Shown here: positions 6,402 through 62,507 of the stretch, in pieces
How positions within the stretch are numbered: the stretch's first letter is position 1
Layout of the letters: every line of letters starts with the position of its first letter
DNA from: Candidatus Kapaibacterium sp.
GTDB lineage: Bacteria; Bacteroidota; Ignavibacteria; Kapaibacteriales; UBA2268
DNA: 64,000 nucleotides
Assembly (NCBI GenBank): GCA_013414795.1
Contig: CP058732.1
Location: 1,649,950-1,713,949 of the forward strand
Direction of reading: 5' to 3'
Notes under the pieces: model-generated
The model's input: the letters and a program-made list of their open reading frames with translations, nothing else
The model's database searches: none
What the model was told of the DNA's origin: nothing
Position numbers and translations under genes: made by a program

Positions 6402-8735
6402 TTATTGTTTAAAATAATTTAAGTTTAAAGAAAAATAAAAAGTTCTTCCTGGATTAGAAGCCAAAAGTCTAATGTCCTTTTTATCAAAAATATTATTTAC
6501 ACCAAACGAAGCGGTAAAATATTTGAAAAAGTCTTTCGAAATGTTCCAATTAAATATGGCATAGCCGGGTGCATATTCCCTTGAATCATCCAGAATTAAA
6601 TTTCCGTTGATATCTTTATAACCATACTTGCTTTTGACATTTACCCTCAAAGAAGTAAATAATTTTAAATTTTCATTAAAATAAGAAAGCCGGATGTTCC
6701 CCGAATGTGTCGGACGATGGAAAAGCCCACCATAATCTTTCAGTTGGACTGGAATATCAAAGCCATTTGGGTCGCGTTTGAAGATTTTTTTGTTTTTTAT
6801 CTTGTCAATAATATCTAAATCACCAGTTTCCAGGTATTGATAAGAGACATTTACTTTGAAATTATTCAAAAATTTATATTCAAAAGATAACTCAATTCCT
6901 TGTGTATAAATTCTTCTAATATTCTGGTAAGTATGCAATCTTTGACCATTTGTTTTTATGGCAACTGGAAGAAAGTCAATCAAATTGTTAACATTGTTGT
7001 GGAAAATGTTGATTTTAACAAATAAATCTTCTGTCGAAAAATTACCACCAAAATCGAATGAAAGAGATTTTTCTGGTTCAAGAGAAGGTAGGCTATCTGG
7101 AGAAATTAGCAAAGTCGCAATTTGACCTTGGGCAAGCAACTTTTTAAGTCCTTCAACTATGTATGTTCTACCAAAGACCGAATAGCCAGCCATTGGATTG
7201 GACCAATCAAGATACAACTCCTCGAAATTTGGGGCTTTGAAACCAGTTCCAACTGAACCACGAATAACAAGCTTTGGAAGAACTTGGTACGAAGCAGAAA
7301 ACTTTGGTGTATAGTTTAAAGGATATTCGCTATGGTCATCAATTCGTAAACTTCCAATCAAGTTCAATTTGTCAAATAATGTAATATCGTCTTGAAGGTA
7401 AACAAAGAAAAGATGATTCCTTTCCTTTCCGCCAGCAATTCTAACAGATTTGGCTTCTTCTCGCCAATAGCCACCACCAAAAGTAGCATAATTGTTTGAA
7501 GCAATTACATAATTTGTTTGCAATTCGGCTTTAAATAAATTCTGACTGAACTTGTATTCATCGTACACCGAGTCGATCTTTGTGAATTTGTCAACAGTAT
7601 TGGTTGAAAAAGAGGAAAAATAGGTGCGAAATTCGTAATTAAACCTATCGTTTAAAGTATTTTTGTAGAACAAGTAAGAACTTAGATCATCAACATTATT
7701 CTTGCTTCTGATAGTGTCATAGTTGGCTAAATAATAATTCAATTCATCTTCAAGATTTGCTTTAAAAGCGAGTCTAATTTTCGAACGAGGAGTTACATTC
7801 AAAAAAGTTTCAAAGTGGAATGTGTGGTTTGTTATTTCTGGAACAGTTTTTCCAACGGAATTTTGAAGAAGTGAATAACCATCAGTTTTAAATCTATGAA
7901 GAAAAGCGGAAAATGAAAGAAAATCGTTAAATAATATTTGTTTGTACTCACCAATTAAATCGAGTGAATTATATGTTCCATACCTTGAATATATGTTAAA
8001 TTCTGTTTCTCTTTCAGGTTCAGATGTAATTATATTTATAATCCCTGCAAGAGCATTGCTTCCATAAAGAGAGGAATTCGGACCTTTGACAATTTCAATA
8101 CGACTTACGTTTCCAACAGAGAGCCGAGAGATATCCAAAATTCCACCAGTACGATTTACAATTGGTTCGCCATTTACAAGCAATAATGTATAATCTGGGT
8201 CAAGACCTTGTAATTGAATTCCACGCCCGTGGTCGTCTACAATGGGAATATCTGTAAGTTCTAATAACATCTCATCGAGTTTCTTTGCATTAACAAGGGT
8301 GATTTCTTCTTTGACAATTGTGGACATAGGCAAAGTGATATTGAATAAATCCTTTTCAGTTCGTGTGGCGGTTACTACAACTTCGTTGGAATGGAACTCT
8401 TTTTCTTTAAGAAAAATATCCAGTTCAATTTTATTAGTTCGGGGTGGTAAAGTTATCGTAGTATCCAAAGTTTCGTAAAAAAACTTCTCAAATTTCACGT
8501 TGATTTTGTCTGTAAAGTTAATTTTGGTAGAAGCAAGACCATCTTTATTTGAAAAAAGCACTTGCTTTGGTTCTGTTAAGTAAATTTGACAATAAGGAAT
8601 CGGCTTGCGATTTGAATCATAAATCTTAAAAATCAAATTAACTACTTCCTTTGTAAACGCCAGATATAAGGAGTTAATTAATAAAATATTTATCAATAAA
8701 ATTATTTTCCTCACTTTTAATTTCTGTATTACCAA
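6402..8735 (-). CDS. TonB-dependent outer-membrane receptor (HmuR-like)
   Basis: A ~777-residue receptor: hydrophobic signal peptide, then a carboxypeptidase-regulatory-like domain (~33-115), TonB box EVVVTATRTEK, plug (~120-225, with GLDPDYTLLLVNGEP and RIEIVKGPNSSLYGSNALAG), and a 22-strand barrel ending in aromatic residues. A FRAP/NPNL-like pair typical of haem receptors is seen as FKAPNFEELY and SLEPEKS, but there is no His between them, unlike HmuR/ShuA. The longest frame starts at TTG 8735; a GTG at 8714 would give MRKIILLINILL and is a plausible alternative. It heads an operon with hmuY, menA and the CPBP gene. A TAATTTTG promoter box lies just upstream. Confidence 0.85.
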   Translation of the reverse strand: MVIQKLKVRKIILLINILLINSLYLAFTKEVVNLIFKIYDSNRKPIPYCQIYLTEPKQVLFSNKDGLASTKINFTDKINVKFEKFFYETLDTTITLPPRTNKIELDIFLKEKEFHSNEVVVTATRTEKDLFNITLPMSTIVKEEITLVNAKKLDEMLLELTDIPIVDDHGRGIQLQGLDPDYTLLLVNGEPIVNRTGGILDISRLSVGNVSRIEIVKGPNSSLYGSNALAGIINIITSEPERETEFNIYSRYGTYNSLDLIGEYKQILFNDFLSFSAFLHRFKTDGYSLLQNSVGKTVPEITNHTFHFETFLNVTPRSKIRLAFKANLEDELNYYLANYDTIRSKNNVDDLSSYLFYKNTLNDRFNYEFRTYFSSFSTNTVDKFTKIDSVYDEYKFSQNLFKAELQTNYVIASNNYATFGGGYWREEAKSVRIAGGKERNHLFFVYLQDDITLFDKLNLIGSLRIDDHSEYPLNYTPKFSASYQVLPKLVIRGSVGTGFKAPNFEELYLDWSNPMAGYSVFGRTYIVEGLKKLLAQGQIATLLISPDSLPSLEPEKSLSFDFGGNFSTEDLFVKINIFHNNVNNLIDFLPVAIKTNGQRLHTYQNIRRIYTQGIELSFEYKFLNNFKVNVSYQYLETGDLDIIDKIKNKKIFKRDPNGFDIPVQLKDYGGLFHRPTHSGNIRLSYFNENLKLFTSLRVNVKSKYGYKDINGNLILDDSREYAPGYAIFNWNISKDFFKYFTASFGVNNIFDKKDIRLLASNPGRTFYFSLNLNYFKQ

Positions 8736-59156: not shown

Positions 59157-60587
59157 ATGGAAATCAATAAGATAGATGAGTTTATCTACGAAATACCACA
59201 AGATGCCTTTAATAAAATGCGGGTTCCTGCACGATTTTACGCAGACCCAAAACAACTCGACTTAATCGCAAAAGACGAAAGTTTAAAACAACTTGTAAAC
59301 GTAGCAACTTTGCCTGGTATTGTCTCCTACTCTATCGCTATGCCCGATATTCATCAAGGCTATGGGTTCCCTATTGGTGGGGTTGCCGCTTTTGACGCTG
59401 ATGAGGGTATTATTTCACCCGGTGGAGTTGGTTACGACATAAATTGCGGTGTACGTCTTAACACAACCAACTGGAAAAAGGAAGAAGTCACAAAGTTTTT
59501 ACCTGAAATTGTAAATGAAATCTATAGAAGTGTACCATTAGGAACGGGCAAAGGTTCCCTAATAAAAGTTAGCAAAAAAGAATTCGAAGAATTGGTTACA
59601 GAAGGAATTGATTGGGCAATTAAAAAAGGATATGCAACAGAATTGGACAAGGAAAATGTTGAGGATAGAGGAACGTTGCCAGTTAGAGATTTATTGGGTG
59701 TTTCGGAAAGGGCTTTTGAGCGCGGTATTACGGAAATAGGAAGCCTGGGTTCGGGTAATCATTTTATCGAAATCGGATACGTTGCTGAAATTTTCGAACC
59801 TGAAATTGCAGAGTCCCTTGGTCTTTTCAAAAATCAGATTGTAGTATGGATACACACAGGTTCGAGAGGTTACGGACATCAAATATGTTCAGATTTTGCT
59901 CGCGAATATCAATCAGTGGCAAAAAAATACCAAATCGAACTTGTTGACAGAGGTTTAGCCTGTGCCCCCTTCAACTCCAAAGAAGGGCAACAATATTACA
60001 ATGCAATGAACTCCGCAGCAAACTTTGCTTTTGTTAACAGACAACTAATTGCCCACCAGATTAAAAACGTCTTTTTAAACTACACCAAAAAGATTAAGCC
60101 ATTGAAATTTGATTTACTTTACGACTTGGCACACAACATTGCTAAAGTTGAAACACACAATATTTCTGGAAAGAAAAGAAAACTCGTTGTCCACCGAAAG
60201 GGAGCGACCCGTTCATTCCCCTCAAAGTTGCTTAAAGGCAAGTTTAGTGATTTAGGGCAACCAGTTTTAGTCCCAGGTTCAATGGGAACATCTTCGTATG
60301 TGCTTATTGCTTCCGAAAATGCTGTCCAATTATCATTTGGTAGTTCTTGCCACGGAGCAGGAAGAATATTAAGTCGAACGCAAGCGAAAAAGGAAATAAA
60401 TGCAAAAGATTTAAAAGAGAAACTCGAAAGACGCGGCATAATAGTAAAAACCCCAAGCATAAGCGCACTTTCGGAGGAAGCCCCCGAAGCATACAAAGAT
60501 GTAGAAACTGTTGTAAATGTGGTAAATAATCTTAAAATTGCAAAACCAGTCGCAAAGATAAAACCTCTCGCAGTAATAAAAGGGTAA
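59157..60587 (+). CDS. rtcB: RNA-splicing ligase RtcB
   Basis: A 476-residue RtcB. Features: MPDIHQGYGFPIGGVAAFD, SPGGVGYDINCGVRL (Cys Mn ligand), GSGNHFIEI, WIHTGSRGYGHQIC and the guanylylated His in SCHGAGRILSR. It joins 2',3'-cyclic phosphate and 5'-OH ends via a His-GMP intermediate. Upstream archease and 17-nt spacing give the usual archease-rtcB operon. The following ~100 nt hold only a weak AAAAAC/GTTTTT hairpin (60624-60639). Confidence 0.95.
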   Translation: MEINKIDEFIYEIPQDAFNKMRVPARFYADPKQLDLIAKDESLKQLVNVATLPGIVSYSIAMPDIHQGYGFPIGGVAAFDADEGIISPGGVGYDINCGVRLNTTNWKKEEVTKFLPEIVNEIYRSVPLGTGKGSLIKVSKKEFEELVTEGIDWAIKKGYATELDKENVEDRGTLPVRDLLGVSERAFERGITEIGSLGSGNHFIEIGYVAEIFEPEIAESLGLFKNQIVVWIHTGSRGYGHQICSDFAREYQSVAKKYQIELVDRGLACAPFNSKEGQQYYNAMNSAANFAFVNRQLIAHQIKNVFLNYTKKIKPLKFDLLYDLAHNIAKVETHNISGKKRKLVVHRKGATRSFPSKLLKGKFSDLGQPVLVPGSMGTSSYVLIASENAVQLSFGSSCHGAGRILSRTQAKKEINAKDLKEKLERRGIIVKTPSISALSEEAPEAYKDVETVVNVVNNLKIAKPVAKIKPLAVIKG

Positions 60588-60687: not shown

Positions 60688-61526
60688 TCATTTAACAACA
60701 AACAAAATTTTTGCAATCGCTGTGTAGGTTTGTTTTTTATAACTAAACACGATTTCATCTTTAGTTGAAACAGTAGCAGTATTCAAAAAATTATCTATTT
60801 CTTTGAACACATAATTAAAATCTCTTTTTAACTTCCAACTATCTTCTAAATTGGTTTTACTTGCTAAAACAATGAATATTCTATTGTCTGCGCCAAATCT
60901 CTGGGCTCCTTGATTTTCATATAGCCAAATCATCAATTCTTTTGGTCGTTGTATAGCTTGATCTAAATTAAAACTTCTTGGCAAATATGTGATTTTTAAA
61001 TCGAAAGGTTAGTTTTCAAAAAAGATATCGATTCCAAAGTTGTTTTTTAATGTTGGAACAACCCTGGGATGCAGACTAATATGATCTTCAATCAAGACTG
61101 TTGTCCAATGATTGTACCAGGTTGCTATTACATAATGAGTAATTTCTTCGTGTAATTTACTTTTAACTCCCTTTATAGATCATCATATTTTGGAAATTGT
61201 CTAACATACTCAACTTGTATTTTCTGGTCTAATTGCCCTTGGACAACCCCCCACTTAAATTCTTTAACTTTCATTAATTCTTGTATTAATTCTTCATCTG
61301 AAATAATTTTTCTTCGCTCGTTAACACGATTTTGATACTTATTTTTTATAAATTCATCTATTTTTTCTTCTGGAATTTTTTCTTCTATAATACTTATTAT
61401 CTTTTTAATTAAATCGTTTACATTCCCCTTGGTGGAAACATTGACAGATTTTGCAAGTTCTCTTAAATCACTTGAATTAATAGATTTTAATTTTAGGTTA
61501 ATTAATTCTTTCTTGGAAACCAACAT
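60688..61526 (-). pseudogene. type II restriction endonuclease, disrupted
   Basis: Two open pieces and a linking stretch give one ~278-residue protein. Part 1 (61526-61173) begins MLVSKKELINLKL, has a SAP-like SDLRELAKSVNVSTKG and ends KYDDL at an early stop. A frameshift of -1 or +2 near 61173-61180 restores the frame (KGVKSKLHEEITHYVIATWY). A TAA stop at 61009-61011 then lies in what should be a PD-(D/E)xK core (GIDIFFEN, stop, PFDLKITYLP). The last piece (60984-60688) ends VVK. The MTase gene lies directly upstream, making a dead or dying R-M pair. Confidence 0.75.
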
Positions 61527-61529
61527 AAT

Positions 61530-62333
61530 TTATACTTTTTGGAATAGAAAAATGTATTCGTGTTTAAAAAAATATAAAATCCCCCTACTAAAGCCCTGTA
61601 ACGCCACAAATGTTCTTGATTTCTTTTTGCTCGGTTGTTAACCATATTTTTTTACTAAGATACTTTTAAGTTTCAATGTTTTTCTCTGTAATATCTCTTG
61701 CATTACCAAAAAGCCTAGGGGTATCCATTCAGAATTTGAATACTTATCCCCAATTATTACCGCGAGGTAATGTTTTCTTTCAAGCAAATCAATAAAATTT
61801 GATACCACTTCTCCAAAAAGTTCCAAAAATTCATCAACAGATTTAGCATTACTTAAATCTTCGGGCCTATCGCTGAATTTAATAATATCGTGGTATGGGG
61901 GATGCATAATAATTAACAGAACTTTTTGCCTCTTGTGGATATTCAGTATATCATCAACTTTCTGCCGTGTCTCCTTTTTGGTACTATCACCAACAATTAT
62001 TTCTGTAAAAACATCATTATCAAAAAGAGTTTCTTGATTAATTCTTTGTTTTGCAATTTCTGCGATTTGGGGTAAAAGTTCAATTCCAATTCCATTTCTA
62101 CTTAATCTTTTACATTCGATCAATGTTGTTCCACTCCCCAAAAAGGTATCTAAAATGACATCCCCTTTTCGAGTAAAGCGTCTCATAAGTTGATTTGGAA
62201 TTTGTGGGATAAAATTTCCGTGATAGTCACCGCGGTGGGAACCAGTCTTATCTCTTTCGCCGAAAATCCACAAACTATCGGTGATTATATCTTCATATTC
62301 TTTCCAATTTTAAAGATTTAAATCGTTTATCAT
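61530..62333 (-). pseudogene. type II DNA methyltransferase, disrupted
   Basis: Coherent protein over several frames. Start ATG 62333 reads MINDLNL, then a TAA (62310-62312), then in the same frame NWKEYEDIITDSLWIFG. The body (62273-61638) has AdoMet motif I DTFLGSGTTLIECK and catalytic MHPPYHDIIKFS, typical of N4/N6 MTases of this group. Near 61647-61653 a 7-nt homopolymer shifts the frame (stop after KKYG); NNRAKRNQEHLWRYRALVGG is read in the +1 frame. A second 7-nt run (61566-61572) needs a further shift to reach FKHEYIFLFQKV and the stop at 61530. Confidence 0.78.
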
Positions 62334-62417
62334 TGAAAATTGGTAGTATTAAATTTCTAAATTAAAAATATTTAACAACTAATAAAGATAAAATGAGGGA
62401 GAAAAATATATTTTTTG

Positions 62418-62507
62418 CGGAGAGGGCGAGATTCGAACTCGCGGTAGAGGTTTTACCCCTACGACGGTTTAGCAAACCGTTGCCTTCAGCCACTCGGCCA
62501 CCTCTCC
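62418..62507 (-). tRNA. tRNA-Ser (anticodon GCT)
   Basis: A 90-nt class II tRNA on the minus strand: acceptor GGAGAGG/CCTCTCC, anticodon stem ACGGT/ACCGT around TTGCTAA (anticodon GCT), a long variable arm, T arm with TTCGAAT, discriminator G as expected for Ser. Its 3' end faces the decayed R-M locus. No copy of the 3' end is seen nearby. Confidence 0.95.

Follow-up and report, generated by a model that had tools for sequence, protein, structure and literature searches.

A decayed Type II restriction–modification pair beside a tRNA-Ser gene in a Candidatus Kapaibacterium genome

Results

Layout of the locus

The window analysed here, a stretch of 64,000 nucleotides, is part of a 2.66-Mb single-contig genome of a Candidatus Kapaibacterium sp. 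(G000:C1:1649950-1713949). Two adjacent pseudogenes lie on its minus strand (62333-60688), one of a DNA methyltransferase (M) and one of an endonuclease (R), between a tRNA-Ser gene and an rtcB-like gene (rtcB below). First-pass annotation of the sequence had proposed a decayed Type II restriction–modification pair next to a tRNA-Ser, and ARAGORN does place an intact tRNA-Ser there. The features of the locus are:

62417..62507, minus strand: tRNA-Ser (GCT), intact, upstream of M (ARAGORN)
61530..62333, minus strand: M pseudogene, N6/N4 DNA methyltransferase (homology, PF01555, PADLOC PDLC03351)
62310..62312, minus strand: in-frame stop TAA, codon 8 of M (ten relatives have a sense codon)
62273-61638, minus strand: 211-aa open piece (ORF), M fragment
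61647..61653, minus strand: +1 frameshift in an A7 run, M (DNA alignment with five intact relatives; G298 alignment)
61645-61502, minus strand: 47-aa open piece (ORF)
61566..61572, minus strand: +2 frameshift in a T7 run, M (DNA alignment with five intact relatives; G298 alignment)
60688..61526, minus strand: R pseudogene, endonuclease, in two frames (match to a single open R in relatives)
61526-61176, minus strand: R residues 1-117, first frame
61526-61173, minus strand: 117-aa open piece (ORF)
61173..61180, minus strand: -1 frameshift, R (DNA alignment with five intact relatives; tblastn with intact R)
about 61175-60691, minus strand: remainder of R, second frame
61009..61011, minus strand: in-frame TAA, R, after invariant Asp162 and before invariant Asp171-x-Lys173 (L135 R numbering)
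60984-60688, minus strand: 98-aa open piece (ORF)
59157..60587, plus strand: rtcB-like gene, open (476 aa), convergent with R, on the far side of the insertion site

The methyltransferase

The 211-aa piece of M matches Pfam PF01555 (N6_N4_Mtase) at 1e-19, above the curated cut-off. The best PADLOC model is PDLC03351 ('Type II methyltransferase'), which the M fragment matches at 2.4e-75 and the intact M of the congener G298 at 1.3e-110. This open 268-aa gene of G298 is the closest intact M (81% identity to the window M), and the fragment matches this same-genus M at 8.8e-118. All sequence motifs that had been named for M are present, i.e. motif I DTFLGSGTT and motif IV HPPY, which follow the beta-type N6/N4 pattern (FxGxG plus PP[YF]; invariant alignment columns), and, in other frames, the C-terminal RYRALVGGFYIF and FKHEYIFLFQK. 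HPP is invariant in the M family and HPPY occurs in 16 of 17 homologues; judged by this alignment, it is the catalytic motif usual for the family and not a mutation. What had to be corrected is the start of the gene: relatives begin two codons upstream of the ATG at 62333, and in the window the start codon at that place is gone. Many PDLC03351/PF01555 homologues carry an N-terminal extension of ~100 aa, which the close clade lacks according to its open-frame lengths. The window M resembles members of PDLC03351 and PF01555 in matching both models and in its HPPY motif, but, unlike them, it is broken by three lesions.

The endonuclease

In profile searches, the 47-aa, 117-aa and 98-aa pieces hit no convincing family on their own. 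The two R fragments of the window, however, match directly adjacent residues of one open R of ~274 aa in relatives (L135-L143); for the R fragment, the match to an intact R reaches 1.5e-68, and the pieces show about 60% (60-61%) and 50% identity to the 277-aa R of G396. E142, D162 and D171-x-K173 (L135 R numbering) are invariant in an alignment of 25 R homologues, and the SAP domain model is matched by 8 of 25 family members. In a high-confidence AlphaFold model of R (pLDDT 91), a helix (122-146) is followed by three strands (151-158, 161-165 and 168-176), and it is here that the conserved acidic residues sit.

Searched with the whole R as well as with the nuclease part alone, Foldseek returned no match to solved nucleases at E <= 0.001, and a sequence search of the PDB with R gave nothing meaningful; AvaII, EcoO109I, PspGI and McrC are weak fold matches (Z 2-3 only). 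Even without a significant fold match, the invariant E..D..DxK residues and the modelled strands suggest that R is likely a PD-(D/E)xK nuclease. The earlier description of R as PD-(D/E)xK-like is therefore upheld as far as the invariant E, D and DxK and the helix–strand order are concerned, whereas the fold itself, with matches of Z 2-3 only, is a prediction. The nuclease part of R hit no model in searches of Pfam, NCBIfam, PADLOC and PHROGs.

Five lesions in 1.65 kb

All five lesions that first-pass annotation had listed, three in M and two in R, were found in place and confirmed by DNA alignment with intact relatives; two of the five are substitutions. The TAA at 62310-62312 is an Asn, Lys or Asp codon in ten relatives (DNA alignment of the N-terminus), and the -1 lesion in R is one base missing next to 61176/61177. 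The TAA at 61009-61011, which is a Gln codon in all five aligned relatives, precedes Asp171-x-Lys173, so that an R product ending there would be without its active site. Homologous M and R genes are single long ORFs that read through every lesion in one frame, and none of them ends where the short ORFs of the window end. The open M and R genes that a working Type II pair would need are thus lacking here, and the reading as a decayed pair stands.

It is very unlikely that the 211-aa fragment, starting from TTG 62273, is still active as a truncated solitary methyltransferase. Its frame (62273-61638) is open and retains motifs I and IV, and its dN is not raised (0.125 for the window M against L139, where intact copies of the same clade give 0.102-0.135), but this longest M fragment has lost invariant residues of both ends: N5, W12 and D21 at the N-terminus and W245, YRAL247-250 and HEY259-261 at the C-terminus.

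Still less probable is an intact locus that only appears broken through sequencing or assembly errors, although the genome is known from a single assembly and two of the three frameshifts fall into the A7 and T7 runs. Run-length error does not account for the other three lesions, two substitutions that create stops and an indel away from any run. Sequencing error is also unlikely because 31 other long runs (A7, A8, T7 or T8, and one C6) lie inside open window genes of more than 150 aa, and because the 17 window genes that could be paired with a syntenic gene of a congener all match it in length, with a longer start choice as the one exception. For these 17 genes, the earlier statement that no other gene of the window is damaged holds, and the 91.5% of the window in long open frames is consistent with it. 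It would be extreme for five errors to crowd into 1.65 kb when none is seen elsewhere. Recoding of TAA was also considered and rejected, since TAA is the usual stop, ending 33 of 51 window genes.

Slippage at simple repeats switches some methyltransferase genes, but that changes in A7/T7 run length turn M on and off here is a negligible prospect, because the runs are short, and shorter still in relatives, and the -1 lesion and the two stops lie elsewhere and could not be reversed by a change in run length.

Intact and damaged pairs in other genomes

One genome per species was scanned, which yielded 80 M loci; R adjoins M in 32 of them, with the window R subtype in 25 and a shorter subtype in 7. 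This conserved adjacency supports the restriction–modification reading, and separate, adjacent M and R genes across genomes point to a Type II pair as the ancestral state. Intact pairs, which first-pass annotation had suggested looking for in sister genomes, were found elsewhere, and the congener G298 has an open M. G396, which belongs to the same class as the window genome, carries M and the 277-aa R in tandem (L101 6358-7509 and 5512-6345). Nine close pairs (L135-L143), drawn from several phyla, consist of an M of ~270 aa and, only a few bases after it, an open R of about 270-277 aa. These pairs share with the window gene order, close spacing and homology throughout M and R; unlike those of the window, their genes are open. 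In many phyla, as seen at the R loci L135-L203, this M is accompanied by an endonuclease family whose N-terminus is SAP-like. In pairs with the shorter, 212-aa R (G152, G140, G236, G294, G132 and G267), M is of the same family as in the window and E..D..DxK is kept in both R subtypes, but the 212-aa R is without the N-terminal SAP-like region and more distant from the window R (~30% related). In one of these genomes, G132, the space between M and R holds two extra short copies of the C-terminal tail of M (84% over 19 aa; L130 3740-3796 and 3920-3976).

Damage is seen elsewhere as well: a frameshift affects only R in G314 (L119) and at L174, L179 and L205, M carries one in G287 (L107) and G300 (L126), and both genes are damaged at L208. 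These are draft genomes, and some of the frameshifts may be errors.

The insertion site

In two congeners, G297 and G299, only about 10-20 bases separate rtcB from tRNA-Ser and there is no insert; both flanks are syntenic in G297, which retains the small ribosomal-type and lipoprotein genes there. Together with the five lesions relative to intact relatives, these empty sites agree with the proposal of an acquired locus that is being lost. In G296, the gap (L104, G296:C49; tRNA-Ser 6688-6778, rtcB 7284) holds a different broken gene, a PF06983/glyoxalase-like remnant (1e-5), so genes may have entered and left the tRNA-Ser/rtcB gap more than once. The M of G298 lies at another chromosomal place, after an aldehyde dehydrogenase gene, where the window genome has no insert.

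In the tree of M, phyla are mixed, with the window copy placed among Elusimicrobiota, Patescibacteria, Omnitrophota and Actinomycetota bins; as these are mostly metagenome bins, single host assignments may be wrong. The simplest reading is that M and R were transferred together. A plasmid collection contained no match to R and only distant matches to M (best 33.5% identity), phage records contained no full-length M, and neither an integrase nor a duplicated tRNA end was seen. At the insertion edges, a 17-nt direct repeat (60690-60706/62370-62386, 88%) was discarded, since pairs just as good arise by chance in this AT-rich stretch.

Discussion

Taken together, the locus is almost certainly a horizontally acquired Type II M–R pair beside a tRNA-Ser and next to rtcB, which is now dead and decaying. 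A pair with M directly followed by R would have arrived horizontally at the 3' side of the tRNA-Ser, next to rtcB. An intact M is expected to methylate its site in host DNA, giving N6-methyladenine or N4-methylcytosine, and an intact R would cut unmethylated copies of the same site in incoming DNA. Because loss of M with R still cutting would be lethal, R presumably failed before or together with M.

As far as sequence divergence tells, this decay is recent and M and R spent most of their history under selection, because the amino-acid divergence of both from their relatives is not raised but lies within the range between intact copies. In 1.5 kb, it would take about 33-42 neutral substitutions (with a very wide range, about 4-150) for two nonsense changes to be expected, which gives no precise age since dS is saturated against every relative. 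Loss of whole restriction–modification systems under relaxed selection is frequent (PMC4176335).

Restriction as such is not lost from this genome, since an open gene for a DpnII-type endonuclease (PF04556, 4.4e-69) adjoins an open methyltransferase frame at G000:C1 about 693100-694730 (L220). A second open methyltransferase gene (298 aa; G000:C1 about 2534260-2536125, L221 2261-4125) overlaps a 336-aa gene without a family match, which may encode its nuclease partner.

For the organism, an acquired defence system in the course of being lost, here well preserved, is ordinary biology. At the level of the family, the pseudogene flags endonucleases whose nuclease part matched no model of Pfam, NCBIfam, PADLOC and PHROGs, and that may well be listed in REBASE. 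We see an even chance that they constitute a cross-phylum, apparently uncatalogued family of Type II endonucleases, with a SAP-like N-terminus and a PD-(D/E)xK-like domain, which would act as partner of PDLC03351 HPPY methyltransferases in both bacteria and archaea.
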